From assembly GCF_010731875.1 (NCBI RefSeq), contig NZ_AP022595.1, forward strand, positions 1,426,001 to 1,490,000: a stretch of DNA of 64,000 nucleotides, written 5' to 3'. The position numbers and the translations under genes are program-made. The first letter of the stretch is position 1; each line of letters opens with the position of its first letter. Source of the DNA: Mycolicibacterium sarraceniae. GTDB taxonomy: Bacteria; Actinomycetota; Actinomycetes; Mycobacteriales; Mycobacteriaceae. Positions 25,473-47,947 of this stretch are shown piece by piece. The notes beneath the pieces are model-generated. The model ran no database searches, was not told the DNA's origin, and was given only the letters and a program-made list of their open reading frames with translations.

Positions 25473-28400
25473 TCATTGCACCGACGCGCCCTCGATGTCA
25501 GATGTGACGACTTGGTAGAACCACTTGGCGATATCGGACATGAGATGTGACCGGCCAGGCGCATTGGTGAAGAAGTAGTCACTCATCTTCTCATGCGCAC
25601 CTTGGTTGTCGGCCACCGCACCCGTAACCGCATCATCGAAATCGGGCGATTCTACGAACTGCTTCGCGGAGTTCACTTTCGCCTGCTGTACGAGCGCATG
25701 GTCGTCGAGCAGTGTCCGCAGTAGTGCTTCGAGAAACGACACCTTCTGGGATTGGGTGAAATCCTCGGACCCAAACAGATCGTTGAGGCGATCGAGAACC
25801 TGTTGAAATGCAACCATTTTCGGATCCCGCTTCTCACCCGATCCAGCTGCAGTGAGTCCGGACAAGCCTACGCGCACACCGAGACCGATGTCGATGCGTC
25901 CTCGGTCAATCTGCTTGACCTGTTTGAGCACCACGTCGGACAGGTCGATGGGCGCGGTGTAGTTCTCCGACTGGATGAAACGGTCGAGAAGTCGAAGGTA
26001 GATCTGTTTCTTCTCCAACTCGGGATCGCCGTAGTCGATGATCTGCGACATGAAGTCGTAGAGACGGACGAACGACCCGACGTCCTTGCGGAACATGTCC
26101 AGTTCGGCGAGCGCGGCTTTGTCTCCCTCGCCACCGTTGTGGATCAAAGCCGCAGTGTACCGGTCAGCAAAGCACTTTTGGCCCGGGCCGACCGCGCCGG
26201 CGAGGGCGCTGTTGCCCTTGCCCTTCACGAAAGCCTCAGCGCACTGGTCGATCTCAGCCTGGGGGTAGATGGCGGCGGTGTCGAGCTTTGCAGCGAGGTC
26301 GTGCACCAGGTTCGGATCGGTCGCAGTTTCCAGGAACGCGTCGGTGAAGTAAGGCTCGAACGCCTCTTTGATCGCAGCGGGTTCGTTCACGAAGTCCACA
26401 ACTTGGGTCATGGCCGCGGTTTTCACGATGCCGGACGGTGTGCGATAGGTGCGGTTGAGCCGAGACAGGGTCTGCACCGTCGTCACGCCGGACAAGATTC
26501 GGTCGACGTACATCGCGCACAGCAACGGCTGATCGAACCCGGTCTGGAATTTATTTGCGACAATCATGATCTTGTAATCGTCGCCGCGGAACGCAGTTCG
26601 CAGATCGTGCACGCCTGGGTTCATGGTCGCTTCGGTGAAGTCGTTCGGACCGGATTCGGGATCCTGGACCGCACCGGAGAACGCGACCAGCGTGCCGTAG
26701 CCGTAGCCCTTCTTGGCGATGTAGTCGTCAATCGCGAGCTTGTAGCGGACGGCGGCCTTGCGGGAGTCGGTGACGACCATGGCCTTGGCGTGCCCGTCGA
26801 GTAGTGCCGCGATATTCTCGCGGAAGTGCTCGACGCTTATCGCTGCCTTCTGCGAGATCGTCTGCGGGTTGAGCTTGACCCAACGCATCACTGCTTTGGT
26901 GGCCTCGTTCTGGTCCACCTCGTCACCGCCACCCGCGTTCTGACCAATCTGAAACGCCAGCTTGAACGAGTGATAACCGGTCAGTACATCAAGGATGTAT
27001 CCCTCTTCGATGGCCTGCTTCATCGTGTAGACGTGGAACGGCACCGGGTTCTCGCCTGGCGCCGGCTCGCGGCCAAACAGTTCGAGCGTCTTGGCCTTCG
27101 GGGTGGCGGTAAAGGCGAAGTACGAGATGTTCTCCGATGCCGCTCGCTCAGTGGCTTCCGCGGCCAAGATCGCCTCGACGTCGATCTCTTTGCCTTCCTC
27201 GACCTCCTTCAGCTCCTCAGCGGTCAACACCGCCTTCAGCTTTCCGGCGATCTGACCAGACTGCTACGAGTGCGCCTCGTCGGCGACGACAGCGAACTTC
27301 TTACCCTTGAGCCCCTTGTTTTCTCGAATCGCCTGCATCGCGAATGGAAACGTCTGGATGGTGACGACGATGATCAGCTTCCCGTCGGTAAGCGCCTTTG
27401 CCAGTAGCCCTGACTTCGAGGCGCCAGCCTTCGCTGCCTGGTCGCGGTCGACTGCCACGACGATGCCCTGATCGTTGTCGATCTGCTTGATTGCGTCCTG
27501 CAGTTGAGCGTCGAGGACGTTGCGATCAGTAACCACGATGACGGAGTCGAAGACCTTCTGATTGTCGACCTGCAACCGGGCCATCCGATGCGCCGTCCAC
27601 GCGATCGAGTCTGTCTTTCCTGACCCCGCAGAATGCTGGATCAGGTAGCGCTTGCCAACACCCTCGGTGGTGACCGCAGCGGTCAATTCCGTGACCGCTT
27701 CCCACTGATGGAAGCGGGGAAACCGCAACGTCGCCGACTTGCTGGTCTTACCACTGATCGGGTCGGTTGAAGATTCGTGCTTGATGTACATCAGCCGGCC
27801 CAAGATGTTGAGCCACGCGTCGCGCTGCAGCACCCGCTCCCAGAGGTAGGAGGTACGTGACCCTTGGGGATTCAGAGGATTCCCAGCACCGCCGGTTTCC
27901 GAGCCGCGATTGAACGGCAAGAAGTGCGTTCTCTCACCCGCCAACCGTGTGGTCATCCACACCTCGTCGTTAGACACGGCGAAATGCACCAAGGCTCGCG
28001 CGCCTGACGTGAACAGCGGTTGTACCTTCCCGGATACGGGGTCCTTTGGCAGTCGTGATGTCCGGTACTGGGTGATGGCATCGGCGACCGTCTGGGTGAA
28101 ATCCGTCTTGAGCTCGGCCGTAGCCACCGGCAGCCCGTTGACGAAGAACACCAGATCTACCGATTGGTTGCCAGCGGTCGAAAAGTGCACCTGCCTCATA
28201 ACCCGCACCCGCACTGCGTCATAGTCCGCGTTGCGCTTGGCGTTCAGCGTGGACTCGGGCTTGAATACGCACATCTGAAACTTCGCAGCCAGATGCGAGA
28301 AGCCCTTACGCAAAAGGTTGAGGGTACCGCCACCATTTTCCAACGGCAGATCGAGCACCTTCACAATCCGGTCGAGCACCTGTGCTTGCTGCTTGGCAAC

Positions 28401-28592
28401 ATCCTTCGAGCCGGACTTGACGACTTTCGCTAACTGGTCGGGCTGGGTGTCCGCAAGCCAGCCGAGGACGTCCTCGGGGAACAGCGCCCGTTCCTTGTCG
28501 TAGCCGGTGTCATTCGCCGAATACTCCCACCCGTGGACGGCGAGATACTTGGCGATTTCCTTCTCGAACTCAATCTCGTTGTGCTGGGCCAT
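25473..28592 (-). pseudogene. hsdR: type I restriction subunit HsdR with in-frame amber stop
   Basis: The complete frame would give ~1,039 codons, the normal HsdR length. The N-terminal PD-(D/E)XK nuclease (ATAELKTDFTQ) and the helicase with Walker A SAGSGKTDS and box VADEAHS are intact. Codon 443 is TAG (27264-27266) directly after DEAHS, where the family has Ser-Gln-Ser-Gly. The remaining motor and C-terminal domains follow in frame (QSGQIAGKLKAVLTAEE onward). A single base change explains it. If real, restriction is lost while HsdM and HsdS persist. A downstream ATG at 27230 could make a 585-aa fragment, but it would lack the nuclease. The start overlaps the hsdS stop by 1 nt. Confidence 0.88.
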
Positions 28593-29851
28593 TAAGCCAC
28601 CTCGTTCCGCACTTCGATCTGCCCGGTCACCGCCGCTGTGATCAGCGCTGCGCGACGCTCGCGCGCCAGGTCGATGAACCGCACCGTCTCTGCGATTAGG
28701 GCGTCGACTTTCGACGTCTCTTCATCGATGTACGCAGCGATCGTTCGCTGTTCAGCGAGCTCTGGGAATGCAAACTTGATCTCCCGGAGCTTCTCGCCTG
28801 TGAGGTGGACGAACGAAACAGCGCTGAAGTGACTTAAGTAGTACCCCGATTCGTATAGCCGAAGAAGCACCCAGTAGCAGAATCGTGCGCTCATCGACGT
28901 GCTCGCGCGTAGTCGGTTGACGGTCTTCTGAAAGGCGATCCCGTCTGCATCGTCATACAGGAACCCCGGCCGGCCGACGGTCGCCCCGCCTTCGATTAAC
29001 AGGATGTCCTCCGCGCGAAGGTCGAAGTGCCGCATCTCCGCATCCGAGAACGGCATCTCATTCAAATCGGCCAGGTTTACAGTGCCATTGGCCAGCACAT
29101 CGGCCGCGCGCACGTAAGGCCGCAGTCGGTCGCCGTCACGATCCGCCCGGCCAGCATCGAGCATCTTGCCGAGACATGTACTCCCAAGGTGCTTGATCCG
29201 GCCAGTGCGCCAGCCCTCTCTGGGCGCGAGCGCTCCGCTGATCACCGACCGACGGCGCTCCTGCAACATATCGATCAATCGGCGCTGCTCCTCGATGAGC
29301 GTGTCGATTCGAGCCGTTTCCCGGTCGAGATAGTCGGCGATGAAACGTTGTTCTGATAGCGGCGGAACGAGCAACGGGTAGTCGAGCAAGTTGCGATCAC
29401 TGAGGGACGGTACGGCCCCCGGGTTCACCAGGTAGTCGAACTTGATCTGGGATAACGCCCAGAACAGAAAGCGTTCATCTACCCCGGCATCTGGATCTGG
29501 AATCAGACCAGCCATGTTGTTGTCGATGCAGGCTGGTCTCGGCAGAGTTCTCACCCGTCCAAGCATCAGAGCGGCGCCAACCTTCGCGTATACCAGGGTC
29601 CCGGCAGGAAAGACGGTCGCGCCGAGCGTTGTCGCTGTCTCTATTTCAATGGAGTCATCTGCCTCCGCCAAACAGCCGGTGGCCGAGGCTTGGCCGAGAT
29701 GCTTAACCTTGTAGAAGGGGATTTCGAGATTATTCCGCCCTTGAAGGGCCGGCGGAAATCCACTCCCCGAGGCCGTTGAACCCAGCGTTCGAACGCGGCG
29801 CCGTTCCCAGCCCAATCTTTGCGTATGAGTCCACGGTGCAATTTCGCTCAC
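28592..29851 (-). CDS. hsdS: type I specificity subunit HsdS
   Basis: 419 aa. Two target-recognition domains (about 20-150 and 215-350) alternate with conserved coiled-coil spacers ending LVPPLSEQRFIADYLDRETARIDTLIEEQ and ELAEQRTIAAYIDEETSKVDALIAE. This two-fold layout defines HsdS, which sets the DNA sequence methylated by HsdM and cut by HsdR. The start overlaps the hsdM stop by 4 nt. The recognition sequence cannot be predicted from this reading. Confidence 0.93.
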   Translation of the reverse strand: MSEIAPWTHTQRLGWERRRVRTLGSTASGSGFPPALQGRNNLEIPFYKVKHLGQASATGCLAEADDSIEIETATTLGATVFPAGTLVYAKVGAALMLGRVRTLPRPACIDNNMAGLIPDPDAGVDERFLFWALSQIKFDYLVNPGAVPSLSDRNLLDYPLLVPPLSEQRFIADYLDRETARIDTLIEEQRRLIDMLQERRRSVISGALAPREGWRTGRIKHLGSTCLGKMLDAGRADRDGDRLRPYVRAADVLANGTVNLADLNEMPFSDAEMRHFDLRAEDILLIEGGATVGRPGFLYDDADGIAFQKTVNRLRASTSMSARFCYWVLLRLYESGYYLSHFSAVSFVHLTGEKLREIKFAFPELAEQRTIAAYIDEETSKVDALIAETVRFIDLARERRAALITAAVTGQIEVRNEVA

Positions 29852-31587
29852 CCCTCCACCACCCGAAGCAGCTCCATGATCTTCGCGACCTGCTTATCTA
29901 GGTCCGCGTCGATCTCCGCGAGCGGTCGAGGAGGTACGTGCTTGTAGAAGTGCCGGGTGAATGGAATCTCGTAGCCCACCTTCGTCTTCGCGGCGTCGAT
30001 CCAGGTGTCGGGAGCGTGCGGCAGAACCTCCGCCTCGAAGTAGGCCTTGATAGTCTCCGCGCGAGCCGCGTCGCCCGCGGTATTCCCACCGTAGGTGAAC
30101 GGGATGTTCTCCGTGTCCCTCAGTTTGGCGTCCGGCTTCGGGTTGTTGCCCCTCCGGTTCGTCGACAACTTTCCCGTATCGGTCCGCATCGGCCGCTCGA
30201 CGGTGACAGACCAATACCCGAAATCGTTGTTGGAGAACACTTTCGAATAATCCGGATCGGCCTCATCGAACGCGTCATACAGCCCCAGAATTCGATCTCG
30301 CGCATCAGCATCAAGTTCGCGGTTCTTGGAGCCAAGGCTCTTGCGCATCTTGGTCCAGAACGAAGTGGCATCGATCAACTGGACCTTGCCGACCCGCTCT
30401 GGACGCTTGGCGTTGTCCAAGATCCAGATGTACGTAGCGATGCCGGTGTTGAAGAACATGTTCGTCGGCAGCGCAACAATGGCCTCTACCAGGTCGGATT
30501 CGAGAAGCCACTGTCTGATCAACGAGGGACCCGACTCTGCCGCTCCGTTGAACAGGGGCGATCCATTGAGGACGATGCCCGCTCGGCCGCCCCCGTCGTG
30601 GGCTGGCCGCATCTTCGACGCCAGGTGCGACAGGAACAGCATCTGCCCATCGCCGATTGACGGTAAACCATGGGAGAAGCGCGAATTCGAAGCCAACGCC
30701 TCCTTCTTCACAGACTCTTGTGACGCCTTCCAATCCACTCCGTAAGGCGGATTCGACATGCAGAAGTCGAAGGTGCGATCGAAGAACAGGTCGTCGGCCA
30801 GTGTGTCACCGAGCTTAATACTCCCCACATCCTGGCCCTTAGCGATCATGTCGGACTTGCAGATCGCGTAGGACTGGTCGTTAATCTCCTGCCCGTACAG
30901 CCGCAGCCGTGCGCCGGGGTTACGTTCGAGCAGACGTTCCTCGGCGACGGAAAGCATCCCGCCGGTGCCCGCGGTAGGGTCGTAGATCGTCCGCACGGTT
31001 CCGGGTTCAAGCAGAGCTACGTTGTCCTCAGCGAACAACAGGTCCACCATCAACCGGATCGCGTCGCGCGGTGTGTAGTGTTCACCCGCCTCCTCGTTAG
31101 AAGCTTCCGCGAACTTATAGATGAGGTGCTCGAACAGATCGCCCATCTCGGCGTTGGAAACGGCATCGGGGTGCAGGTCTACCTCGACAAACTGCGACGT
31201 AACCAGGTACAGCCGATTCTTTTCGTCGAGCGTGGCGAGCTCGTTCTCGAACTTGAACCGCTCGAAAACGTCGATGTTCGACGAGAATCCGGTGATGTAG
31301 TCCATTAGGTTTGCGCGCAGACCCTCCGGATCCTCCAGCAGAAGCTTGAAATCGAAGGCACTGGTGTTGTAGAAGGCAAGACCTGTCTTGCGCTTCACCT
31401 GCACATCCAAAGCCCCGCCGGAGTACTTCTCGGCCAACTTACGCACCTCGTCGCGGGTCGGTTCGAGGATGCAGTCCAGACGCCTCAGGATTGTGAACGG
31501 CAGGATCACCCCGCCGTATTGGTGTGGCTTGTAAACACCGCGGAGCTGGTCGGCGATGCCCCATACGAAATTGCCCAGCTTGCTCAA
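29848..31587 (-). CDS. hsdM: type I DNA adenine methyltransferase HsdM
   Basis: 579 aa. An N-terminal HsdM_N helical domain (VWGIADQLRGVYKPHQYGGVI) precedes an N6-adenine methyltransferase with the SAM-binding motif YDPTAGTGGML and catalytic NPPYG. EHYTPRDAIRLMVDLL is the conserved entry to the domain. It methylates adenine at sites chosen by HsdS. It is coupled to hsdS by a 4-nt overlap and lies 76 nt after the methylase-like gene, so the run from 34278 to 25473 is probably one operon. Confidence 0.95.
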   Translation of the reverse strand: MSKLGNFVWGIADQLRGVYKPHQYGGVILPFTILRRLDCILEPTRDEVRKLAEKYSGGALDVQVKRKTGLAFYNTSAFDFKLLLEDPEGLRANLMDYITGFSSNIDVFERFKFENELATLDEKNRLYLVTSQFVEVDLHPDAVSNAEMGDLFEHLIYKFAEASNEEAGEHYTPRDAIRLMVDLLFAEDNVALLEPGTVRTIYDPTAGTGGMLSVAEERLLERNPGARLRLYGQEINDQSYAICKSDMIAKGQDVGSIKLGDTLADDLFFDRTFDFCMSNPPYGVDWKASQESVKKEALASNSRFSHGLPSIGDGQMLFLSHLASKMRPAHDGGGRAGIVLNGSPLFNGAAESGPSLIRQWLLESDLVEAIVALPTNMFFNTGIATYIWILDNAKRPERVGKVQLIDATSFWTKMRKSLGSKNRELDADARDRILGLYDAFDEADPDYSKVFSNNDFGYWSVTVERPMRTDTGKLSTNRRGNNPKPDAKLRDTENIPFTYGGNTAGDAARAETIKAYFEAEVLPHAPDTWIDAAKTKVGYEIPFTRHFYKHVPPRPLAEIDADLDKQVAKIMELLRVVEG

Positions 31588-31663
31588 TTGACTCTCCTTC
31601 TGAAACTGCGCTTATCGTGGGTGCCGCATGAGTGTGGCAGCCCGGTCCGGACATACCGCGGGA

Positions 31664-33763
31664 TCACTCGTCGCCGCCAATCGGCGCGTCGTATCGCACG
31701 GCATCGAGGATCGCGGTGGCAGAAGCTGCAGCGGCCTCCGCCACCGCAGCAGCCTGTCGAGCAAGCTGCTCGATCTCACGTAAAGCTCCGACAAGGCGAG
31801 CCTGCTCCGACAGCGGGATCAGGGGAATCTCGAGCTCCCGGAGGTCGACGCGTTGGATCGTCGCACCCTTCTTGAAACGTTCGTTCCACGTGCCACACAG
31901 GCACCGTGCTACGTAGTTCGGTTCGCATTGCTTATCGTCGACACGCAGCCGATAAACACCGTTGCCGATGAGCCGGCCGCCTTGCTTATCGACCACCGCT
32001 CGAACGACATTCCATGTCGTCACCAGCACGTCGCCGACTCGAGTTCGTTCGTCGCGTCCGCCGACCAGGTTTGGCTGTGCATCGATCGGTAGCTGGTCGA
32101 GTACCGGTAGCCCGTCGCGCACTTCGTTCGGCGTTACCAACGCAGCGGCGTCTCTCTCGTCTAGGTCGTCCCGCTTGACGCGTCCGTTCTGGATTGAGGC
32201 CACATCGAGTTGCACAAGTTCTTTCACGGTCAGGAGCCGCGGTGTCGCAGACGGCCCTTGCGGCATTGGCACCACCGCGTGATCCAACAACGTGGCGAGT
32301 GCGTTCTCGAGAACATGCTGCGAGTCGGCGAGACGAGCCGCCACGTCCTTGGGATCTGAGCCAGGTGTTTTTACCCAGCGCCGAGGGTCGAGCTGTGCAT
32401 CATCAGCGAGCAAGTCCAACGTCTTGATCAGTTCGAAAGGCGGCGCACCGGCCGCCGATCCGGTTAGACAGTCATCGAGCCACGAAAGTGCATGGGCCTC
32501 GGGGTTCTCTGATTCCGAGGCATCGATCAGCAAGACATCGTTACTGGCGGAAGCGTGATCCGCCAGTCGCAGAACCCATAGCGCTAACGGAATAGTGGTG
32601 TGGGGCAGCATCTTTGGCGGTAGCAGAATGACAGCCTCGATCCATCCTGATCGGAGCAGTTCGGCACGGATCGAGGCGCTGCTGCCACGCGCAGTCAACG
32701 GTGCCACGGATGTGACGACGTAGGCACTCCCATTCGGCTTCAAGTGAGCAATTGCGTGCTGAAGCCAGGCCAACTCGGAATTGTTGGCGGGCGGTATGCC
32801 GAACACCCAACGCGGATCCGCGATGTTCTGGGACCGGGACCAGTCCATACCAAACGGAGGTTCAGCGACGACGGTGTCTGCTCGAAGATCTGGGTCTGGG
32901 TCTTCGTGCAGCACGTCGCCACACTCGAACTCAGCGTCCAGCTCGTGCAGGAGGCTGCGCATGCGAGCAAACCGAATGGCCCGCGCATTGATGTCGTGGC
33001 CGACCAACCGAACGGTCCCCCCGCATTTCGTCCGGGTCCGAATGAGTGCCTCAGCAATCCCGCATGCGGGGTCATAAACGAGGCCCTTGGTCGACGACGC
33101 CAGGTTCGAAAGGAGTTCCGATACGCGCGAGTTCACAATCCCGTGTTCACCAACGCCGTACCCGGCCGCGCGACCGCGTTCGCCGCCGCCGCGTCGGAGC
33201 ACCTCGTCTGCCGCGACCGCCAGGCGGTCAACATCGATCCCGTCAACGGCGCTCACCATGGCCGCCATCGGGAGCGTGTCGAGCCGCCCGTTTGTCTCCC
33301 GCTCAACATCATCGAGAGCTGACAGAATGTCGTCCCATCGCGGATCGGTCGCTGTATCGCTCGAGATCCGCCGCAGTACATCCACTGTTTGAGACGTGCT
33401 GGCCGCCGCTATCAGCCGCCAGTTCCCGTCGGCGGCCTCCATCGATAGCTTCTTTGCACAACACAGGGCTAGAGCGAGCTCACCTGCTACGGCAGTTGAT
33501 ACACGTCCCCGCAGGGCGTTCAACGAATGCGAAAGGGCCGCCTGGCTGCCGTCGCGTTGTATCTGGATCTCCGGCTTCGTTTCAGCAAGCCAGGCGATGA
33601 CCTTCTCCAGGTCGTACAACGGCTTGGTCGCAGATTCCGGGGCCGGATCTGGAAATGGCGGATCGCTCGGTCGCTTGCGCCAGTTGGTGACTGCTCCTCG
33701 CGTGACGCCAGCCAGGTCTGCGATCTCGCTAGGAGTGAGCAGCACCCCTGCCGATTCACCCAT
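31664..33763 (-). CDS. HTH + HsdM-like + HsdS-like fusion with altered catalytic motif
   Basis: 699 aa. The N-terminal MerR/phage-like HTH is LTPSEIADLAGVTRGAVTNW. Residues about 150-480 have an N6-adenine methylase fold: the SAM motif YDPACGIAEAL is only partly conserved, and the catalytic motif reads AEPPFGMDW instead of the usual (N/D)PP(F/Y). The C-terminal ~180 residues look like one HsdS target-recognition domain with its coiled-coil end (LIPLSEQARLVGALREIEQL). The Asn-to-Glu change suggests that it binds DNA or SAM without methylating, or uses a variant site. Its start overlaps the NYN stop by 1 nt and the type I operon follows. The role is unknown. Confidence 0.8.
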   Translation of the reverse strand: MGESAGVLLTPSEIADLAGVTRGAVTNWRKRPSDPPFPDPAPESATKPLYDLEKVIAWLAETKPEIQIQRDGSQAALSHSLNALRGRVSTAVAGELALALCCAKKLSMEAADGNWRLIAAASTSQTVDVLRRISSDTATDPRWDDILSALDDVERETNGRLDTLPMAAMVSAVDGIDVDRLAVAADEVLRRGGGERGRAAGYGVGEHGIVNSRVSELLSNLASSTKGLVYDPACGIAEALIRTRTKCGGTVRLVGHDINARAIRFARMRSLLHELDAEFECGDVLHEDPDPDLRADTVVAEPPFGMDWSRSQNIADPRWVFGIPPANNSELAWLQHAIAHLKPNGSAYVVTSVAPLTARGSSASIRAELLRSGWIEAVILLPPKMLPHTTIPLALWVLRLADHASASNDVLLIDASESENPEAHALSWLDDCLTGSAAGAPPFELIKTLDLLADDAQLDPRRWVKTPGSDPKDVAARLADSQHVLENALATLLDHAVVPMPQGPSATPRLLTVKELVQLDVASIQNGRVKRDDLDERDAAALVTPNEVRDGLPVLDQLPIDAQPNLVGGRDERTRVGDVLVTTWNVVRAVVDKQGGRLIGNGVYRLRVDDKQCEPNYVARCLCGTWNERFKKGATIQRVDLRELEIPLIPLSEQARLVGALREIEQLARQAAAVAEAAAASATAILDAVRYDAPIGGDE

Positions 33764-34278
33764 CAGGCCACATCCATGTTCGACGCGGCGGGAACAGACC
33801 GCGGCGACGGCTGTTCGGGAAGTAGCCTGACCTCTGCGGCAGCGAGCCCCAGCCGTCGAGACAGACCGCCGGCGTGTGCAACCACCGTTGTCTTCACTCC
33901 CCGCGAAGCTAGTGCAGCAATCGCGTGCGTGAAGATTCCGTCGCCCGACACCAGTACGACTTCGGTAAAGCGGTCGGCGATGTTCTCGCCAAGCACTTCA
34001 AGCAAGGCCAAATCTGCGCCGTTCTGGCCTGGACGCATGACGTACCTAACGCTCTGCCATGTAAGGGCGAGATCCAGCAATCCAGTTGGACCAACGCCGA
34101 TCACAACCTGGTCACCGGGCTGCGCCGGGACGCACTCGGCTACGACCACCTTGGCCCATGAGACGTAATCGCGGACAGCGGATAGACCACCGACAACATT
34201 TTCGATATCAACCAGGACGATCCGGCGCTTGCCGATCTTGCGCCCGTCAGCCCGATGATGTGTTCCCGTGAATGACAT
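33763..34278 (-). CDS. NYN/PIN-like nuclease-fold protein
   Basis: About 171 aa from the ATG at 34278 (MSFTGTHHRADG); an upstream ATG at 34314 is possible. The fold has acidic residues in RIVLVDIENVVGG, NGADLALLEVLG and EVVLVSGDGIF, matching the metal-binding acidic triad of NYN/PIN-type RNases (LabA-like). It is expected to cut or bind RNA with a metal ion. The gene is translationally coupled (TGATG) to the methylase-like fusion and heads the presumed operon that includes the type I system. NYN domains are seen in other anti-phage loci, but this pairing is not one I recognise. Confidence 0.8.
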   Translation of the reverse strand: MSFTGTHHRADGRKIGKRRIVLVDIENVVGGLSAVRDYVSWAKVVVAECVPAQPGDQVVIGVGPTGLLDLALTWQSVRYVMRPGQNGADLALLEVLGENIADRFTEVVLVSGDGIFTHAIAALASRGVKTTVVAHAGGLSRRLGLAAAEVRLLPEQPSPRSVPAASNMDVA

Positions 34279-34694
34279 GCGAAAAGCATCGCACGCAGTT
34301 GCCGTATGCGTCAAGCCCTTATGCGATTCACGCTGACCGTGAACTTTGCACTGACGCGTTCGGGGGTCTCGCTCGCACTACCGTTCTTGTTGGTGATCGT
34401 CGCCGGGTGCGTGCTTCCTTCGGTCAGTTGGGCTCGTCATTTCGGAGCCACGTGACATTTGTTTCAGCGGACCACGGGCTTCCCCCAGGCAGGCCGGGCC
34501 GAAGGTCAATACACACTGCGTGACCGCTTCGTGCCAGCGGCGAGGATCGTCGACTCCTCAGATTCAGCTGCACGCATGCCGACCTCATCCACAGGTCGTA
34601 TCCCGGGCATCACCGCCCTCACAGGATTTCGCAGATGTGGCGCGAGCAGAGGCGGCACAAGCCCAGACCGCTCCTCAAACGCCTTTGGTTGCCG
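34279..34694. other. gap between NYN and RyR-like genes
   Basis: 416 nt between two leftward genes. It should hold the promoter of the NYN-hsd operon. It also contains a possible 44-codon plus-strand frame (34321-34455) with one hydrophobic segment (LALPFLLVIVAGCVL). That frame has no clear ribosome site, and I cannot tell whether it is translated. Confidence 0.35.
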
Positions 34695-34976
34695 TCATCG
34701 CGTGAGTGCGTCGATGATGACGGGAAGGTACCGACGAACCTGCTCCCGGTCGCTGTTTTTCTCGCGTTCAGTCAGCCCGACGTACGGCGTCTCGATTTGA
34801 GCTTCCCAGCGCGCAGCCAGCTCGGCCGGGATCGTTAAGGATCCATCTTGCTGGCGCTCGCAGTTGTCATGGACGTACCGCTGCCAGTGCGCCCAACGCT
34901 CGTGCTCGACCGCGGCGAGCTCGTCGACGAGCTGCTCACTCTCCAGAACCTTCCGGATTGCGTCGGTAGATGGCAT
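34695..34976 (-). CDS. small RyR-domain-like protein
   Basis: 93 aa. HERWAHWQRYVHDN and the ending PYVGLTEREKNSDREQVRRY match the RyR repeat pattern (HxxWxxW ... LxExEKxxDRxxVxxxL) found in ryanodine receptors and in scattered bacterial and phage proteins. Bacterial RyR domains have been proposed to bind nucleotide-derived ligands. The start overlaps the caspase stop by 1 nt (TGATG), making it the third gene of a coupled TIR-caspase-RyR-like operon. The family match is by pattern only, and the function is inferred from context. Confidence 0.65.
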   Translation of the reverse strand: MPSTDAIRKVLESEQLVDELAAVEHERWAHWQRYVHDNCERQQDGSLTIPAELAARWEAQIETPYVGLTEREKNSDREQVRRYLPVIIDALTR

Positions 34977-35968
34977 CAGATCAGGTCCTGCTTCACGAGC
35001 TTCCAGTAGTGCTGTCCAAGGACGGTAAGTTCACATGCCTTGCACTGCATCGCTGCGTGCCACATGTGCGGCGCACCAACCGGGCGGACCAGGTTCACCT
35101 TGACTAACTCCTGCAGCACCGCGAAGTCGGCGTTCTTGGCCGGGTCCGGTGGCGGGACCGAGTCGTCCTCGTTGCCCGTGCGCTCGGGCTCGTAGCCCGG
35201 ATCGAGCTGGAGCTCCTCGGTCGGTTGGCTGAACAGGATGGTGAGCTGCTGCAGCTTGACGAGCTCGATCGGTGCGTCCGCCTCCCGCAGCGAGACGAAC
35301 TTCTTGATGTTCGTCTTGAACACCGGTCTCTGAGCCCAGGGGCCGAGCGACTGGTCGATGTGCGCGTAGACGCTGCCGGGGGTCACATCGCCGACGAGAT
35401 TGGCCGCAGCGCCGTTGAGTGCATCAACGAGCAGGCTCGTAAATACGCCCGAGCCACCGGACTCCATCGCGTACTGCTCCGCCGTCGAAGCGGTCAGGAT
35501 CGTGACCCCCTCCTTGATCTCGGCAACCTGGTCCGCGACAGGGTTGGTGCCGGCCACCCCGCTGTGGCAGCTGTCCAGGATGATCACCTTGTTCTTCGCC
35601 GGCGAGCTGTTAGCGAAGGTCAGCACCTCGTTGAGCGAGAGGCCGTCGTGCCCGGAGGCGCAGTCGCTGGCACATAGGTACCCGCCGGCCCCGTCGATGT
35701 AGCCGTGCCCGGAGAAGTACAACAGCGAGATCTCGGCATCGTCCTTGAACAGCTCCTGGACCGCCTCACGCAGCTCGGTGCGGGACACCGCTGCTCCCGG
35801 GCCAGTGGCCGTCATTAGCCGCGGCTGGGCGAAGTTGAGCGTGCCGTCGGCATGCCGTTCCAGCACGGCCTTGACGCTGTGAGCGTCGTTCACCGCGCCG
35901 CTGAGCGACTGGATCTGGTCATAGTGATCGATCCCGATGATGAGCGCCTTGCGCGTATCCCTCGGCAT
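34976..35968 (-). CDS. caspase-like (peptidase C14) protein
   Basis: 330 aa from the ATG at 35968. The caspase fold is shown by [26 protein letters not shown] (His88) and [10 protein letters not shown] (Cys134), the His-Cys dyad of C14 proteases. The C-terminal ~115 residues hold an acidic linker and then a winged-helix-like domain ([19 protein letters not shown] ... [17 protein letters not shown]) that may sense or dock. The ATG shares one base with the TIR stop and the RyR-like ATG shares one base with its own stop. A TIR gene making an NAD-derived signal that activates a caspase-like protease has been reported as type IV Thoeris. This operon is a candidate relative. Confidence 0.88.
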
Positions 35969-36339
35969 CAGAGCGAGTCGATGAAGCCGGCAATGTTGGC
36001 GTCGGTCCAGGGCACGGTCCGGACGCCAGCGAGGTTCGTACGGTCGGAGGCGTAAGACCAGACGCCGAGCAGTGGCTTGGCCTCCTCCTTGGCGCATTGG
36101 ATCTCCCACTTCTGCCCGGAGGACGTCAGCGAGTTCTTGCTCACGAGCGCGATGACGCCATGGGAGCGGCGGATGCGTGTACGAACCTTCTCCTTCCACC
36201 CAGTGTCGTAGGGCTCCTTCACCGACATATCGATGAACTCGTACGGCGAGCGCGGATGCAGCGACTGCCCTTTCAGCAGGTCGCGCTGACGCTCGTCCTC
36301 GATCGCGAACGCGATGAATACGGTCTTCTTGTCGGCCAT
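35968..36339 (-). CDS. Thoeris-type TIR-like (DUF1863) protein
   Basis: 123 aa. The ATG at 36339 is preceded by GAGGAG at a good distance; the longer upstream frame is not needed. The fold matches ThsB-like TIR proteins. There is a first strand [28 protein letters not shown], and a putative catalytic Glu79 in [19 protein letters not shown]. Such proteins turn NAD into a cyclic ADP-ribose-type messenger during phage infection. It is the first gene of the coupled operon with the caspase and the RyR-like protein. Activity is inferred from fold and context. Confidence 0.82.
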
Positions 36340-36665
36340 GTGTGGACTCCTCATCTTGCTCAGCCGCGACCGCCGTCGATCGCTGAACGACTCAGCTCGG
36401 AGGTTATCCGCCACCACCGACAACGCACCCGCCCCGGCGGCTGCAAGTGATCGCCAGCGAGGAGCTGGCCGGCCGCGCTTCCAGCACACGGAAGAGATCC
36501 GAGTTCGTTATGGCCTGCCGCCATCAGGCACGCGTTGACGGCCGCTACTTCCAGCTTTGCATGACCGCCTTCGACTGAAGATGCCATCGAAATCGAACGG
36601 TCAGGGCATCTCGCCGCTCGTTACGCCCGAGATCAACACCTGGCGCGTCCTGTGAGAATCAACCC
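36340..36665. other. divergent promoter region, nothing else seen
   Basis: 326 nt between the leftward TIR operon and the rightward nuclease gene. It should contain both promoters. No palindrome or coding frame stands out. Confidence 0.4.
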
Positions 36666-38879: not shown

Positions 38880-41435
38880 TCAGCCCTTACGCAACGCTTC
38901 GTGTGCCGCCACCGCCTTGCTGCCCAGTTCCGTAGTCGCCATCGGCCGGTTCGGTGTCCAATGTTCGAGCAGTGGCCCGCCGAAATCTTTTGTCAGGTAG
39001 CGAATCTGTGTGTTCAAAGTTGAACGATTGATACCCAGGTGTTCCGCGGCCTCGCACACCGATTCGTGTTCTGTGACGCGGACGAAGTTACTGAGATGAA
39101 TTAGTCCTGCAGGGCGACTGAGGGTTTGATGCAGTAGTTCGTGGGCCTCCACTCGTGAGAGGATTATGCGACGGGACCGCGCAGGCTGGTGAAGCAGAAT
39201 GTCGTATCGGGCGAGCCATTTTCGTAGAGTCGGCCAGCTGATCCCGAGTTCCGCGCAGAGGTCTGTTTGGGTTCTGCGGGCGACAACGTAGTTCTGGTGC
39301 AGCCACTGGAAGTCGATACTTACCTCCTGCGACCGCAGCGTAACCCCGTACTGGTTAGCGCTCCTGCGCACGCTCGTTCTGCTCATGCCGAATCGCGCCC
39401 CGATCTCGGCGCACGCCAGATGCTGGACGTCGTATAGCTCATGGAGGACTTCCTTCGTCAAGGAAGTATTGCGTGCTGCGCGTAAGACGTCCCTTCGCAC
39501 CGTGCGCCCACCAGTCGCGTTGGGTTCAGGTGGATGCCGGTCCAATAAATATCGGACTGTGTCAATGGTGACGTGAAATGTCCTTGCCAAAGCTGGAACT
39601 CGTGCAGAGGCAGCGCTCGCAGCTGATCGCAGGGCCGTGATGTCGACATGCTCGCACTCCGGGGCGGGTAGCGCCAACCCTTCCACCAGAGCGAGCGGTG
39701 GATGCCACTTCAGCGGCTCATCCGCGATTCCGTTGCGGGCGAGAAACACCATCGCGTGCTCATCGAGCGCGTGCTGCAGCGCCGAGGTGAGATCCAGTGG
39801 AAAGTTCAGAGTTCTCGTCAGCATTTGGGGTCTCCCGTTGCGTGCGTCCTGCGCATCGGGCGGCGCAGATCTTCCGGAGATTCTCCGGAAGAGGTAGCGG
39901 CGGGCGATTTCAGCCTTGACCGGCGAGCCGGGCAATGCGCCAGCCCGGTGTGCGGCTGCGTTCCAGTCAGGATCGGGCAGGAGGCTTCTGTAGTCGAGTC
40001 GCCGGCGCCGCTGGTAGTCGATGGGGTTTCCGCTCGTGCGCAGATAGTCGGCCAGTCGTATAAGTGCGGTAGAGAAAGACGGCCAGTGTTCGCTCTGATG
40101 CAGGTACCTCAGCAGGTGCTGCAACGTCCGCTCGGCGCCATTGTCCAGTTGCTTCGCTGCTGCCTCCGGCGTTAGGTCTGTTCCGACAAGGAGCACCGCG
40201 CTTGCCAGTGCCGGCCGCCATCGTTCGTAGGTTCTGCTGGTTAGCCCGAAACGAATCGACCACTCCGGCCATAGTGTGGACGGAAGACTGGACACAAGCC
40301 GCTCCACGCCAAGTTTCGATGCCGCGGGTGTCGCTGGATCCGGCGATGCCGATCGATAGCGCAGCTGCAGTGGGGGAATGAGATTGGGTGCGTAAGCTTT
40401 GATTTGCGCCGCCGCCAATGCTCGACTGCACGATAACCCGATATTGAGGATTCGCTCGGTGCCGGGTAGTTCTTCGTCGGGTATGAGCCAGGCCATCCGC
40501 TGCGCCGCCAATGCGGAAGTGGCGGTTTCGACGATTTTGAGTGCCTCGGTGGCGTAGACCGCGGCTTCGACAGCTGTTACGGGTGCATCGAGGCTCAGCC
40601 GACGGAGGTGCCGGGTTGGTGTGACAGGGGCGGCTCGTACCCGATCCTCGTCGTAGGCGGCGATGAAATCTGCGTGCGGTAGTTCGTGTAGGCTGTGCCG
40701 ACGGGAGTGCACCACAACCCTCGCAGCGATCATCGCGAGATCTCTCAGGGCGGTTTGTACATTGACCGGCTGCTGAACGTAGATCCCGTAGTCAGCGGTT
40801 CCGGCGGTGAGCATTCGGTTGATCCTCCTCTGCGCGCGCATGATCCGATGGTCGGCGGAAAGTGTTATCGCCCCGGTGGTCTCAGTGAGGTCGGCGCCGC
40901 ACGGGGTGGTGTCTTTATTTGATATCGAGCATTGTCCCGGGCTGGGAATGCTACCGAACGGGGGCGGGAACTTCCGCTGGAACCGGTGGCACCGGGGGCA
41001 CTCGTCGACCAATAGGCGGTTGTGTTCGGTGCAGGCGAAGGACCAACTCAGCCGCCATCTGAGGTGCCAACGGCCGCCGTTGTGCGCGAGGCATTTCGGG
41101 CAATAGCGAGAGCGAGGGGTTGGTCCGAGCCGCGCCCACGGAATGTCATTTCGGAGCCTGTGATTCTCGCGATCGATGCTGACTGCGAGGCCGTGAAACC
41201 GGCGCAGAGTGCCCGCTCGGATGGCGGCGGGATCGGTCGCGGTAGCTTGTGCGATCTTCTCTGTTTGATCGTCCGTTAGGTCGACGACCCACGAACTTGA
41301 GTAGTCCACCGGAATGCCCACGTGCTCAGCAAGATCCCCAAATGCGGTGCCGAACCGTATTGCGACCGCCTCGAGCCAGGAATCGATGGCTTCGCCCTCC
41401 ACCGGAGCTACGCGGAACGGCAATGTTCGAGTCAC
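38880..41435 (-). CDS. tniQ: TniQ/TnsD-family target selector 2
   Basis: About 851 aa from a GTG overlapping the first tniQ stop by 4 nt (GTGA). The TniQ domain begins VTRTLPFRVAPVEGEAIDSW and has zinc-finger residues SRYCPKCLAHNGG, FACTEHNRLLVDECPRC and CSI. Much of the middle is helical. The C-terminus has at least three helix-turn-helices (CAEIGARFGMSRTSVRRSANQYG, TQTDLCAELGISWPTLRKW and the LysR-like EAAEHLGINRSTLNTQIR). TnsD-type proteins bind the attachment site and recruit TnsC. At ~850 aa it is far larger than Tn7 TnsD (~500 aa). With two tniQ genes, one may recognise dnaB and the other a second target class. Confidence 0.88.
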   Translation of the reverse strand: MTRTLPFRVAPVEGEAIDSWLEAVAIRFGTAFGDLAEHVGIPVDYSSSWVVDLTDDQTEKIAQATATDPAAIRAGTLRRFHGLAVSIDRENHRLRNDIPWARLGPTPRSRYCPKCLAHNGGRWHLRWRLSWSFACTEHNRLLVDECPRCHRFQRKFPPPFGSIPSPGQCSISNKDTTPCGADLTETTGAITLSADHRIMRAQRRINRMLTAGTADYGIYVQQPVNVQTALRDLAMIAARVVVHSRRHSLHELPHADFIAAYDEDRVRAAPVTPTRHLRRLSLDAPVTAVEAAVYATEALKIVETATSALAAQRMAWLIPDEELPGTERILNIGLSCSRALAAAQIKAYAPNLIPPLQLRYRSASPDPATPAASKLGVERLVSSLPSTLWPEWSIRFGLTSRTYERWRPALASAVLLVGTDLTPEAAAKQLDNGAERTLQHLLRYLHQSEHWPSFSTALIRLADYLRTSGNPIDYQRRRRLDYRSLLPDPDWNAAAHRAGALPGSPVKAEIARRYLFRRISGRSAPPDAQDARNGRPQMLTRTLNFPLDLTSALQHALDEHAMVFLARNGIADEPLKWHPPLALVEGLALPAPECEHVDITALRSAASAASARVPALARTFHVTIDTVRYLLDRHPPEPNATGGRTVRRDVLRAARNTSLTKEVLHELYDVQHLACAEIGARFGMSRTSVRRSANQYGVTLRSQEVSIDFQWLHQNYVVARRTQTDLCAELGISWPTLRKWLARYDILLHQPARSRRIILSRVEAHELLHQTLSRPAGLIHLSNFVRVTEHESVCEAAEHLGINRSTLNTQIRYLTKDFGGPLLEHWTPNRPMATTELGSKAVAAHEALRKG

Positions 41436-43831
41436 TCGGCGCTCGATGGGGCCAGAGGATTGTGTCGCGGTTGGTTCGATGGTTCGGCGGTGCGGCGGAT
41501 ATTGAGACGCGCCGTGTGACTTCCTCCGCCTCGGCTTCGCATCGGTATGGCGTGAGTCTTTGCCCACCGCGCCATGTTCGCGGTGCTCATTCCGGCCTCT
41601 TTGGCGATGTCGGGTAAGGCACGGCGTTTGTTGACGTACTGGTCGTACAGCCAGTCTCGATCTATGGTCGTGCGGGCTTGTAGACCGGGTTCGCGTAGCG
41701 GGAGGTCGTAGTCATTGGCCAGACGAGCGACGATCTGGCGGCTCACTCCTACCGCCGCCGCGATGTCTCGGAGCGACATCCGCTGATGCTCGTAGAAATC
41801 AGCCAAAACGACCCGCGGGAGCGCTGCTTTCGCGGTCGCATACGCGCGGTTGTGGTAGGTCGGCAGAGAGTCACCCGACGCTAGATTCGGCCGGGGCACG
41901 GGGTGGGTCTCGAGTAGGTAGCGCACGGTGTCGAGGCTGGTGCCCAAACGATGTGCGGCGGTCCCCAGCTTCATTCCGTCGACGCCCATGACACGGTGCA
42001 GGCGGGCGATGTCGACCGTGGCGGGGTCGGGTCCAGGGAGGTCGAGCCCCTTGTGCACCGCGTTCGGTGGGTGCCATGTGGCAGGTTCGTCGTCGATGTT
42101 CTGGTCGGTCAGGAACTCGTGAGCGTGTGTGTTTAGTGCTTCGGCGAGTTCGGGTGTGAGATGACGGGGAAAGTCCGCGGTCTTGGTGCGAAAAGCGCTG
42201 TCGTCCAAGGCCCATGGCGATGTGCTGGCGGGCTGCCCGCTCAGGCGCTCGAACAAATAGCACCGGGCGATCCTTGCCCGGGCCGGCCGCGGTCCCGGAG
42301 TGGCAGTGTCGCGGCAGATCTGGGTCCACACTGTGTCCGGTAGCAGCGTGCTGTAGTCGGCGCGGCGACGGCGTTGGTAGTCGATCGGGATGTCATTGTC
42401 AGCCAGGTAGTCGGCCATTCCGATGAGAGCGGTCCGGATGCTGGGCCACTGGTCCTGCTTTTCCAGGAGCTGCAGGACGCGGGAGACGGCGTGGCCTTCG
42501 ATGGGACCGTCGATCAACCAGGCGGCTTCGTCGAGGTTGACCCGGCTACTGACCAGCAGAAGGATGCTGGACAGTGCTGGGCGCAGCTGCCGTTGATGGC
42601 AGTTCTGAATCGCTAATGGCAGTGACCACGTCGGCCACAACATCGCGGGCAGCCGGCGCACCAGGGTCGCGGTGCGCTCCGTACCCGGCACCGGCTGAGC
42701 TGGCAGTCGAGTGCCTATGCGGTAACGCAGTTGATCGCTTGGATTGAGAAGCGGCCCCAGGGCGGTGAGCTGGACTCCGGTGAGCACCTGCGACGTATTC
42801 TTACCCCACGCGATGTTGGTCGCGCTCACTGCCGATCCGCGCTGCCGCGAGGAGGCCACCAGCCAGCGCAGCGCGTCGCCGGCGGACGCCACGTCGGGCC
42901 GAGCCAAGGCTTCCAAGGCGGCTATCACTCCGACAGCGGCAGTCTCGGCTCGTGTCGGTGCGGCCAGCCCAGGCTTGGTTTCGGTTCGTGCGGGTCCGGA
43001 CCGCGAACCCGAGGTCTCGCCCACACTCTGGTAGATGCGGTTGAGGTCCTGTGGGACCAGACTTTTCAGGTCTTCTGGTGTGGCGTATGCCAGCGCCCGA
43101 CCCGCGACGGCCCGGATATCCGAGAGAACCTTGAGCCGTGCCTGCGGCAAGGTCTCGTACACTCCGAACGCTGTGTTCTCGCTGTCGAGGACGGCGTTCA
43201 CGACCCGCTGCGCGTGTATCACCGGATGGCCTGCGTCGAATGAATGAACAGCCGCGGCGGCAAGGTCGGTGCTGCATCTTCGTGGGGTGCGGCCAGTGGC
43301 GTCGGGAGCCGGGTGCGAGCAGCGACCGGGCTGAGGAACCATCTCGCCAACGTGTGTGCGGACGCGCTGGACCGCGCCGCAGCCTGGACAGGCGTCTGCG
43401 AGCAAGCAATTATGCGTGGTGCACGCGAACGTCCAACCCAGGCGCCAACTCAACTGCCAGCGCCCACCGGTCGCGTCCAAACATGCTGGGCAGAACCGCG
43501 ATCCCCGTCCAGGTCCCCAGGGAAACGCGCGGCTGAGCATTCCGTCGTCAGGTTTGACGCGCACCGCCCGACCCGAATAGTGTTGCAGTGTCATTGTTCT
43601 CAACACATCCGGGTCAATCCCGGTTGCTGCGCCGGTCGTCGCTGCTTCGTCGGGGTTCAGACACACGACCCAGGCGGGCGTGCTCATCCCGCTGAACGGG
43701 CTCAGTCCAACGGCCGTCAGTAGGTCGCTGAATGAAGTGTGGGTACGGTGAGCGATAGCTTCGAGCCACGAGTCGATTGCCTCACCCCCGATCGGAGCAA
43801 TACGGATCGGTAGAGTGCGCACAGAGTTCAT
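41432..43831 (-). CDS. tniQ: TniQ/TnsD-family target selector 1
   Basis: 799 aa. It starts MNSVRTLPIRIAPIGGEAIDSW, the TniQ signature. Zinc ligands are in RFCPACLDATGG, FACTTHNCLLADACPGCG and later Cys residues. Two C-terminal helix-turn-helices are present, SLRDIAAAVGVSRQIVARLANDY and ALPDIAKEAGMSTANMARWA. The start overlaps the tnsC stop by 4 nt. It shares layout and several motifs with the second TniQ, which points to an old duplication followed by divergence of the DNA-binding end. Confidence 0.9.
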   Translation of the reverse strand: MNSVRTLPIRIAPIGGEAIDSWLEAIAHRTHTSFSDLLTAVGLSPFSGMSTPAWVVCLNPDEAATTGAATGIDPDVLRTMTLQHYSGRAVRVKPDDGMLSRAFPWGPGRGSRFCPACLDATGGRWQLSWRLGWTFACTTHNCLLADACPGCGAVQRVRTHVGEMVPQPGRCSHPAPDATGRTPRRCSTDLAAAAVHSFDAGHPVIHAQRVVNAVLDSENTAFGVYETLPQARLKVLSDIRAVAGRALAYATPEDLKSLVPQDLNRIYQSVGETSGSRSGPARTETKPGLAAPTRAETAAVGVIAALEALARPDVASAGDALRWLVASSRQRGSAVSATNIAWGKNTSQVLTGVQLTALGPLLNPSDQLRYRIGTRLPAQPVPGTERTATLVRRLPAMLWPTWSLPLAIQNCHQRQLRPALSSILLLVSSRVNLDEAAWLIDGPIEGHAVSRVLQLLEKQDQWPSIRTALIGMADYLADNDIPIDYQRRRRADYSTLLPDTVWTQICRDTATPGPRPARARIARCYLFERLSGQPASTSPWALDDSAFRTKTADFPRHLTPELAEALNTHAHEFLTDQNIDDEPATWHPPNAVHKGLDLPGPDPATVDIARLHRVMGVDGMKLGTAAHRLGTSLDTVRYLLETHPVPRPNLASGDSLPTYHNRAYATAKAALPRVVLADFYEHQRMSLRDIAAAVGVSRQIVARLANDYDLPLREPGLQARTTIDRDWLYDQYVNKRRALPDIAKEAGMSTANMARWAKTHAIPMRSRGGGSHTARLNIRRTAEPSNQPRHNPLAPSSAE

Positions 43832-44952
43832 CCGGCCTTGCCGACCCTTGTCGTCAGCCTTCGCGTTTCGAAGGCCATCGCCAGTTCCTGGCGTGCCTTC
43901 TCGGATGCTTCGTCGATTTTGACGCGATCCATCAGCTCACGGGACAGGACTTCGGTCCCGGTGCGCACAGCTCGTTGGCATCCACGATTGATCAGGGTCA
44001 TGAGCGAACCGATATGTCCGGTGCTACGGGCGAACAGGTAGTCAGATAGATGGTCGGCCAACATGCCGGGATGCTTCTCAGCCAGCACGATCCGCTTCTC
44101 CAACGTCAGCAGCAGTTGGCGCCATTCGCGTCTGCCCTCATCTGTGTCGATCGCGAACGGACGCATGTCGAGTTTTGTTGTTCGCCTGCCGGTTTGGGCA
44201 ATCACAGCGTCCTCGTAGGAATGTCCTTCGGAGAACAGTCCACGCGCCGCCAGGCCGACTCCGACAAAGATCAGGGTGACGGGAAACTCGTTGGCGATGT
44301 ACTTGAAATGGTTGCTGATCTCCACTCCAACGGAGTTGCGCCAACGCAGAAAGTGCAGATCATCAACAATCAGCAGCTTTGTTTCGCACGTCAGCACGCA
44401 GTCCAGCGCGCGGTGTGCGAAGTGCGCGGCGTTGCCGCGGGCCGTGCCCGGATGTGCGTAGAAGGACAACATGGCTCGGTTGAAGTCGACCATGCCGGTG
44501 TTACCGGTCAAACCGACTCGGCATACCGGCCACCGCTCGTGGCCCGCGCCGGTCTCAGTTCCTTGCTCCTTCATCTCGCGACGGTGGAACTTCCTGGCGA
44601 AGTCCAGCACTGATGTGGTCTTCCCGAGTCCGGGGAAAGCGTCGATCGCGACTGCACCCTTGGCCTTATCGCCATCTTGGAGATTGCTGTCGACGATGTC
44701 CCACAGGTCCTCGTGCAGTGCGGCCAGTTGTGGTGTCTTGATCGGACCAAGATTGGCGTGCCATTCGCGACGCTGCCGGTTGTAGTCGTCGAAGGCCGTT
44801 TCGCCGAGCTGCTCAAGCTCCGTACGAGTCAATGACTCTGGTGGGATCCGTGAGGCCGTGTTCACAAACCGTTGCCAGCCCTCCTTGCGCGCCAGCGTGA
44901 GATTGTCCAGTCGTGATTCAGTGTTCTCTGGTGGTTTTCGTCTGGCCGTCAC
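43828..44952 (-). CDS. tnsC: TnsC-type AAA+ transposition regulator
   Basis: 374 aa. Walker A FPGLGKTT lies at about residues 106-113 and Walker B KLLIVDDLHFLRW follows. SVGVEISNHFKYIANEFPVTLIFVGVGL matches the sensor region of TniB/TnsC ATPases. The protein would bridge the TniQ-bound target and the TnsA/TnsB transposase in an ATP-dependent filament. It is coupled by 4-nt ATGA overlaps to tnsB upstream and tniQ downstream. Confidence 0.93.
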   Translation of the reverse strand: MTARRKPPENTESRLDNLTLARKEGWQRFVNTASRIPPESLTRTELEQLGETAFDDYNRQRREWHANLGPIKTPQLAALHEDLWDIVDSNLQDGDKAKGAVAIDAFPGLGKTTSVLDFARKFHRREMKEQGTETGAGHERWPVCRVGLTGNTGMVDFNRAMLSFYAHPGTARGNAAHFAHRALDCVLTCETKLLIVDDLHFLRWRNSVGVEISNHFKYIANEFPVTLIFVGVGLAARGLFSEGHSYEDAVIAQTGRRTTKLDMRPFAIDTDEGRREWRQLLLTLEKRIVLAEKHPGMLADHLSDYLFARSTGHIGSLMTLINRGCQRAVRTGTEVLSRELMDRVKIDEASEKARQELAMAFETRRLTTRVGKAG

Positions 44953-47084: not shown

Positions 47085-47094
47085 GGCGGGCTCC

Positions 47095-47820: not shown

Positions 47821-47870
47821 GCCGCCACCATTGCAGCTCCGAAATGCCGCTCTGCGGATTCCGCGCGGCG

Positions 47871-47947
47871 TGTCTCAGTATTTCTGCACAAGTGCAACGG
47901 TGGTGCAGTCAGTCGTGAGAAAGTGCAGTCAGATTTGAGAACCTACA
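47871..47947 (-). repeat. right end with packed TnsB-site-like repeats
   Basis: Read inward from 47947: TGT, then AGGTTCTCA-N7-CTGCAC, then directly TTTCTCA-N7-CTGCAC, and a further copy TGTCTCA-N6-CTGCAC in the opposite direction at 47871-47889. The left end carries the same motif with wider spacing. The copies sit immediately upstream of tnsA and probably overlap its promoter. Confidence 0.75.

Follow-up and report, generated by a model that had tools for sequence, protein, structure and literature searches.

A TIR–caspase–RyR operon of Mycolicibacterium sarraceniae as a candidate type IV Thoeris variant with a predicted RyR-domain brake

Introduction

Type IV Thoeris (Rousset et al., Science 2025) is, as cited in PMC12847820, made up of a TIR protein and a caspase-like protease and is reported to use N7-cADPR. 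Phages are reported to interfere with TIR-derived signals by means of small RyR-domain proteins. One of these is RyDEP, the gp78 protein of mycobacteriophage DyoEdafos, which contains an RyR/R12 domain (PF02026). A 2026 preprint (PMC13232231) describes RyDEP as an inverting glycosidase that overcomes Thoeris by converting both 2'cADPR and 3'cADPR to ADPR; its catalytic dyad consists of H75 and D117, W78 stacks on the adenine and H100 contacts the phosphate. The same source states that before RyDEP no proteins hydrolysing 2'/3'cADPR were known. It further reports that none of eight other phage homologues cleaved the signals, that six bound them, two with nanomolar affinity, and that phage RyR proteins binding TIR-made signals inhibit Thoeris (PMC13232231).

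The operon bears on how bacteria restrain harmful TIR signalling while they are healthy, and on whether such signalling can be brought to an end. In type III CRISPR systems, ring nucleases let the host itself clear an immune nucleotide signal. In this work, we describe a three-gene operon that adds an RyR-domain gene to a TIR–caspase pair, found in a 64,000-nucleotide stretch of the Mycolicibacterium sarraceniae genome (“the window”; contig NZ_AP022595.1, positions 1,426,001 to 1,490,000). A literature search, with the type IV paper and a key 2025 TIR preprint outside its coverage, returned no description of a TIR–caspase–RyR operon, and the term “RyR” is absent from the searched passages of PMC7159879.

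Operon Organisation

Located on the minus strand, the operon encodes first a ThsB-like TIR protein (123 aa), then a caspase-fold protein (330 aa) and last an RyR-domain-like protein (93 aa). Its features are as follows:

36347..36351, minus strand: AGGAG, ribosome-binding-site-like, 7 nt ahead of the TIR ATG (read from the sequence)
35968..36339, minus strand: ThsB-like TIR protein (123 aa), predicted to cleave NAD and make the signal (PF08937, E=3.8e-8)
36103-36105, minus strand: TIR Glu79 codon
34976..35968, minus strand: caspase-fold protease, 330 aa (PF00656, E=2.7e-19; model pLDDT 91.3)
35705-35707, minus strand: caspase His88 codon
35567-35569, minus strand: caspase Cys134 codon
34991..35143, minus strand: C-terminal, winged-helix-like region (residues 276-326) of the caspase-fold protein (model secondary structure; column conservation)
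34695..34976, minus strand: RyR-domain-like protein (93 aa), predicted to hydrolyse or soak up the signal (PF02026 match at E=1.2e-4, under the cut-off)
34902-34904, minus strand: RyR H25 codon
34893-34895, minus strand: RyR W28 codon
34749-34751, minus strand: RyR D76 codon

At both junctions, neighbouring stop and start codons share one base (TGATG), and the third, RyR-domain gene is translationally coupled to the TIR–caspase pair. The RyR gene gives a single match in the 4.83-Mb, one-contig genome. Gene calls and Pfam confirm the three-protein operon with TGATG overlaps that the sequence-only reading had described; the matches to ThsB_TIR (PF08937) and Peptidase_C14 (PF00656) are above the Pfam cut-offs. 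Glu79 of the TIR protein as well as His88 and Cys134 of the caspase-fold protein were found at the residues claimed, and are kept in 49/50, 50/50 and 50/50 non-redundant operons, respectively; the one exception for Glu79 (L049) has a TIR frame of just 104 aa. The “winged-helix-like tail” ascribed to the caspase protein is consistent with the secondary structure of the confident model, in which helices at residues 276-290, 302-307 and 316-326 are interspersed with strands at 294-297 and 311-314. Seven columns of this tail (L293, A306, L314, T315, G318, Y321 and L324) are invariant among 48 aligned sequences, and we infer that the C-terminal part is a candidate signal-binding or regulatory region.

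The 23 TIR relatives picked for alignment, drawn from the best 120 of 7419 matches, are 79-96% identical. Searches of PDB sequences with the TIR profile, and likewise with the single TIR sequence, gave 0 matches.

The RyR-Like Protein

The window RyR-like protein matches PF02026 at E=1.2e-4 with 22.6 bits, which is under the gathering score of 27.4; 36 of 51 RyR relatives (window protein counted) match the family at E<=0.01, the best at 1.2e-6. On these sequence comparisons, a distant homology to the RyR domain family PF02026 is supported. The family profile also matches an RyR1 chimera in the PDB (E=6.5e-5, summed over weak repeated short stretches), and this match runs through both motif ends with the same anchors as the PF02026 mapping. 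A PDB search with the single RyR sequence gave chance-like matches alone, and the PHROGs collection contained no family for the window protein or for the three viral relatives tried. The structural model (pLDDT 96.5) is mainly helical, with a helix at residues 51-62; Foldseek and VIA searches with this model gave no convincing RyR structure, RyR3 appearing just as a 26-column match (E=7.7).

Seven residues—H25, W28, H30, W31, H36, W57 and D76—are present in 50/50 non-redundant operons. In viral relatives, H25 and W28 are each kept in 22/22 and D76 in 21/22, whereas H30 and H36, fixed in the operons (50/50 each), are found in 8/22 and 13/22, respectively.

The structure of RyDEP (PDB 35TM) was located by sequence search. 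When both proteins are placed on the PF02026 columns (window RyR 12-88 on 16-83; RyDEP 72-117 on 26-71; gap-free anchors assumed), H25, W28 and D76 correspond to RyDEP H75, W78 and D117, so that the catalytic dyad and the stacking tryptophan are kept. RyDEP His100 is not kept; its column, counted back from D76/D117, lands on A59 within helix 51-62. For RyDEP Gln54, no clear counterpart is seen in the window protein. An hhalign comparison of the RyR family with RyDEP was not significant, and the RyR profile missed RyDEP within the protein's own phage stretch (L081) at E<=0.01. The homology between the two would be a transitive one, both being linked to PF02026.

Retention of the catalytic positions together with a rebuilt ligand site might be expected if the RyR family fits another cADPR isomer. 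The signal reported for type IV Thoeris counts against a RyDEP-like hydrolysis here: N7-cADPR contains an N-glycosidic link, as opposed to the O-glycosidic link cut by RyDEP. The His/Asp/Trp pattern could be compatible with a pure sensor, too.

Conservation and Genomic Distribution

An alignment of RyR relatives was used to scan 84,980 species genomes; of 84 matches confirmed, the 80 best were kept and gave 79 loci, whose neighbour genes were assigned by profile searches of ORFs. The loci were located through RyR peptide patterns and, therefore, the scan gives no share of TIR–caspase pairs that carry RyR. At 59 of the 79 RyR-family loci, chiefly in Actinomycetota and Pseudomonadota, the order TIR–caspase–RyR is found on one strand (58 called by script, plus L003, where the ORF is over-long and the TIR was seen in a profile search); in the 58 measured loci, the genes are tightly packed. 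The three-gene set sought elsewhere is hence present, and the possibility that no homologous operons exist is ruled out. Three loci with different phylum labels (L058, L060 and L063) share identical profile scores, so mis-binning is possible. In 9 loci, the first TIR gene has another TIR gene ahead of it.

The remaining loci fall into three groups. Caspase–RyR without a TIR just upstream occurs in 6/79 (L014, L036, L054, L056, L071 and L072), some of these having a shortened caspase or lying at a contig end. In another 6/79 (L028, L032, L047, L052, L066 and L068), RyR stands beside TIR and/or caspase-fold genes in other arrangements, and in 8/79 (L008, L018, L065, L073-L076 and L080, with L065 at a contig end) it occurs without TIR or caspase.

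Several of these loci have individual features. At L014 (1830-6208), a 1036-aa protein whose N-terminus carries a TIR domain comes after caspase–RyR, and at L036 (495-3974), a 1159-aa protein without a Pfam match at E<=0.01 directly precedes caspase–RyR, at the usual place of the TIR. The RyR gene of L052 (456-3908) is convergent with a TIR–TIR–CHAT set, CHAT being another caspase-fold protease found with TIRs. The mycobacterial locus L137 (8077-12834) carries 8xMP–caspase–RyR, then a nucleoside-deoxyribosyltransferase-like part fused to a prokaryotic STING, and an adjoining metallophosphoesterase; there, RyR may belong to another signalling system.

For evolutionary comparisons, 61 operons were reduced by 11 near copies to 50 non-redundant ones; L003 is outside this set, and L102 is an unverified metagenomic phage record. 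Within the 50, pairwise TIR distances track those of the caspase (r=0.58), and caspase distances track those of RyR (r=0.45; 0/2000 permutations as high); the TIR–RyR correlation is weaker (r=0.21; 10/2000 permutations as high). In six operon pairs, dN/dS is 0.03-0.25 across the three genes and 0.09-0.25 for the RyR gene; in a seventh pair, dS is saturated. By these ratios, purifying selection seems to act on each of the three genes. Conserved order and purifying selection rule out that the operon consists of three unrelated ORFs.

Among 297 genomes of the window's genus, RyR was found in 7 (E<=0.001), the caspase in 6 (E<=1e-30) and the TIR in 8 (E<=1e-10). All three genes adjoin in four genomes (G000, G081, G084 and G260), which are the four with a TIR of at least 75% identity. 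The other three RyR matches (G129, G167 and G265) are without a close TIR–caspase pair: in G129, RyR adjoins a caspase of just 38% identity and no TIR reaches 75%, and in G265 and G167 a piece of RyR is present and the caspase absent, G265 being a stump and G167 lying at a contig end. Genome G054 contains distant caspases without RyR.

TIR–Caspase Pairs Without RyR

RyR-less pairs were gathered among plasmid records and viral contigs; a pair counted as RyR-less when tblastn (E<=0.01) or the RyR profile gave no match. A TIR match was obtained in 60 of 72,556 plasmid records, 32 of them with at least 58% identity. Of these 32 plasmids, 18 have RyR next to the caspase and 14 are without an RyR match; within the 14, nine share a caspase match ending at residue 133, one has an interrupted caspase and four (CP133151, NC_009661, CP045692 and CP024822) combine a full-length caspase with no RyR. 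The 28 records with a more distant TIR yielded one RyR match, about 3 kb off. The RyR profile, run on eight plasmid loci with an uninterrupted caspase (L105-L110, L112 and L113), detected no RyR; in two of them (Enterococcus and Sinorhizobium), a second TIR gene occupies the third position. Locus L111 and eight similar enterobacterial plasmid records have a TIR gene of the same kind and a caspase match stopping at residue 133.

Viral contigs contained 18 strong caspase relatives (L142-L159), with a TIR in the fetched stretch of 17/18. RyR was seen in 1/18, namely L145, which shares its contig with L085. In three of the 18, the fetched sequence stops inside the caspase gene or right at its end, where an adjoining RyR gene would be out of view.

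TIR–caspase pairs with a full-length caspase and without RyR exist, and RyR is therefore considered an accessory or modulator and not a core component; these pairs exclude RyR as an essential core part. In a caspase tree made by a quick method from biased sampling, with 27 of 76 inner branches open, one 57-row crown group (support 91, below the starred level) takes in all 50 RyR-bearing operons together with four RyR-less and three re-arranged rows; 16 of the 20 RyR-less pairs lie outside this group. This topology suits a putative gain of RyR in a single type IV Thoeris-like lineage, with some later losses.

Phage-Borne Relatives

A tblastn search with the RyR protein matched 11 phage records, of which two were inspected. 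In Ma-LMM01 (L104), the RyR gene is alone within a 5.2-kb stretch, and the unverified metagenomic record MT835687 carries the whole TIR–caspase–RyR set. Of 20 RyR loci on viral contigs, 19 show neither TIR nor caspase within the sequence fetched, which in some cases is short on one side; the contig of L085 has caspase–RyR with TIR genes nearby. The RyR tree places 20 of its 22 viral rows, with low support, outside the group holding all operonic rows, L082 and L085 being inside. On this placement, the idea that RyR is a mere phage protein trapped in the island was rejected.

Genomic Surroundings

Downstream of the operon (25473-34314) are an NYN-domain gene, a methyltransferase gene, hsdM, hsdS and an hsdR-like gene of type I restriction; upstream, a Tn7-like transposition module reaches dnaB. 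The relevant features are:

25473-27230: hsdR-like gene, second of two ORFs (domain-3-like part)
27264-28592: hsdR-like gene, first of two ORFs (HSDR_N)
31664-33763: methyltransferase with specificity-like C-terminus
38880-47820 (38880-47947 in a wider delimitation): Tn7-like transposition module
47959-50640: dnaB, 893 aa, N and C domains split by an insertion with a LAGLIDADG match

The Tn7-like module comprises two TniQ genes, a TniB/AAA-like ATPase, an integrase-fold transposase (weak Pfam matches) and a TnsA-like gene. Two repeats TTCTCANNNCTGACTGCAC lie beside dnaB (47903-47941); the search pattern was derived from these repeats themselves, and two matches arose in 5 of 100 shuffles as well. 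A search for the other end of the Tn7-like element did not find it. The dnaB insertion is intein-like as judged by the LAGLIDADG match.

The order NYN–methyltransferase–hsdM, along with DNA similarity, is seen again at L003 and L008. In the latter (Mycobacterium sp. E1747), an RyR stump (residues 25-93) lies about 10 bases from dnaB, with the same restriction genes after it; TIR, caspase and Tn7-like genes are missing between the stump and dnaB, and L138 (G265) shows an identical arrangement. The defence island looks mobile or unstable, because L008 lacks the TIR, caspase and transposition genes yet keeps the restriction genes.

Proposed Function and Alternatives

Judged by gene make-up and catalytic residues, a type IV Thoeris-like character of the TIR–caspase core is supported, with the third gene as a putative new part. 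The sequence-only reading had named this pairing and had taken the RyR-like protein for an added sensor, adaptor or brake. The pairing is borne out by Pfam and the catalytic residues, and an added component acting on the NAD-derived signal is plausible; of the three roles, the evidence leans towards the brake, given that phage RyR proteins hydrolyse or sequester TIR-made cADPR signals and that the catalytic positions are kept.

A type IV Thoeris variant with a built-in RyR brake, i.e., a predicted hydrolase of or sink for the TIR signal, is the explanation to which we assign slightly better than an even chance. As reported for the family, the TIR protein would sense infection and convert NAD+ to a cyclic ADP-ribose-type signal. 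This signal would switch on the caspase-fold protease (an activation likewise reported for the family), perhaps via its C-terminal part, and the active protease would degrade cell proteins, stopping phage growth. The RyR protein would bind the same signal and hydrolyse it or, failing that, soak it up; background TIR activity would be kept from tripping the protease, and the alarm could end. A brake or hydrolase is suggested because of the homology with phage RyDEP and the kept His/Asp/Trp positions, and it is preferred over an adaptor because signal-binding phage RyR proteins inhibit Thoeris and the catalytic pair is fixed. Stand-alone RyR relatives in phages—a setting where RyR proteins are reported as counter-defence—speak for a role in signal removal. 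Further points in favour are the TIR–caspase–RyR order in 59/79 loci, the correlated caspase and RyR distances and the dispensability of RyR, which suits a modulator. Points against are the missing His100, the non-significant comparison with RyDEP, the lack of cleavage by the eight other phage homologues, the weak TIR–RyR covariation and those three of seven RyR matches in the genus that are without a close TIR–caspase pair. A bolder version, in which the operon-borne enzyme destroys the TIR-made alarm, perhaps by new N7-cADPR chemistry, and phage anti-Thoeris RyR proteins are its viral counterparts or derivatives, is put forward tentatively, its chances being well short of even.

The non-catalytic half of this explanation, a pure sponge or buffer that binds without cutting and sets a threshold, is unlikely taken alone. 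It draws on the phage homologues besides RyDEP, none of which cleaved while six of eight bound, two with nanomolar affinity (PMC13232231), and on the loss of His100. A sponge need not retain both H25 and D76, however, which are present in 50/50 operons; against this stand the facts that viral relatives retain them as well (22/22 and 21/22) and that most phage homologues tested in print were sponges.

Could RyR instead be a signal receptor aiding activation, as an adaptor or sensor that delivers the TIR product to the caspase or assembles with it? The tight coupling of the RyR gene to the caspase gene, a caspase–RyR covariation exceeding that of TIR–RyR (r 0.45 vs 0.21) and the persistence of caspase–RyR without the usual upstream TIR in 6/79 loci (some being contig ends or having a shortened caspase) would all fit. 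We nevertheless consider this improbable: RyR-less TIR–caspase pairs exist, so activation need not depend on RyR; the full His/Asp dyad is kept, beyond the demands of binding alone; and phage RyR proteins, where tested, act as Thoeris inhibitors (PMC13232231).

Compared with the built-in brake, two further ideas fare poorly. That RyR acts against counter-defence—as a guard of the signal pool, a decoy or a monitor for phage RyR proteins or sponges—is brought to mind by the related stand-alone phage proteins, yet it is very unlikely, with no gene arrangement seen that points to a guard and with 20/22 viral rows outside the operonic RyR group, at low support. An unrelated task on another nucleotide, with RyR riding along as a mobile neighbour, would agree with its distance from characterised RyR proteins (under the Pfam cut-off; RyR3 fold match at E=7.7) and is highly doubtful in view of tight operonic linkage across many families, correlated distances, purifying selection and the association of RyR with other TIR/caspase-fold sets.

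Comparison with Known Systems

If the brake explanation is true, a conserved RyR protein in a defence operon would be a host-encoded regulator and an off-switch for the Thoeris alarm. The operon would tie a phage counter-defence family to the very defence it counters and place the RyR R12 domain, known from animal calcium channels, in a defined bacterial context; with three small genes, the control of a TIR signal becomes directly testable.

Type IV Thoeris is the closest described defence system, sharing TIR and caspase-like protease genes in one operon, and the catalytic residues of both proteins are kept here; it differs by the RyR-domain third gene, which is unmentioned in the passages considered from PMC12847820. 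Ring nucleases have a role comparable to that proposed for the RyR brake, with a different protein and a different signal. The animal RyR Repeat12 domain, matched by the family profile in the RyR1 chimera, sits in a calcium channel, whereas no channel is present here. With RyDEP, the window protein has in common the RyR/R12 domain, the His/Asp/Trp positions and the make-up of a small protein tied to TIR-derived signals; it differs by the absence of His100 and Gln54, by helix 51-62 where RyDEP has the HP loop and by an identity of just 19% in the alignment. Above all, RyDEP is a phage counter-defence protein, while the window RyR is part of a defence operon.
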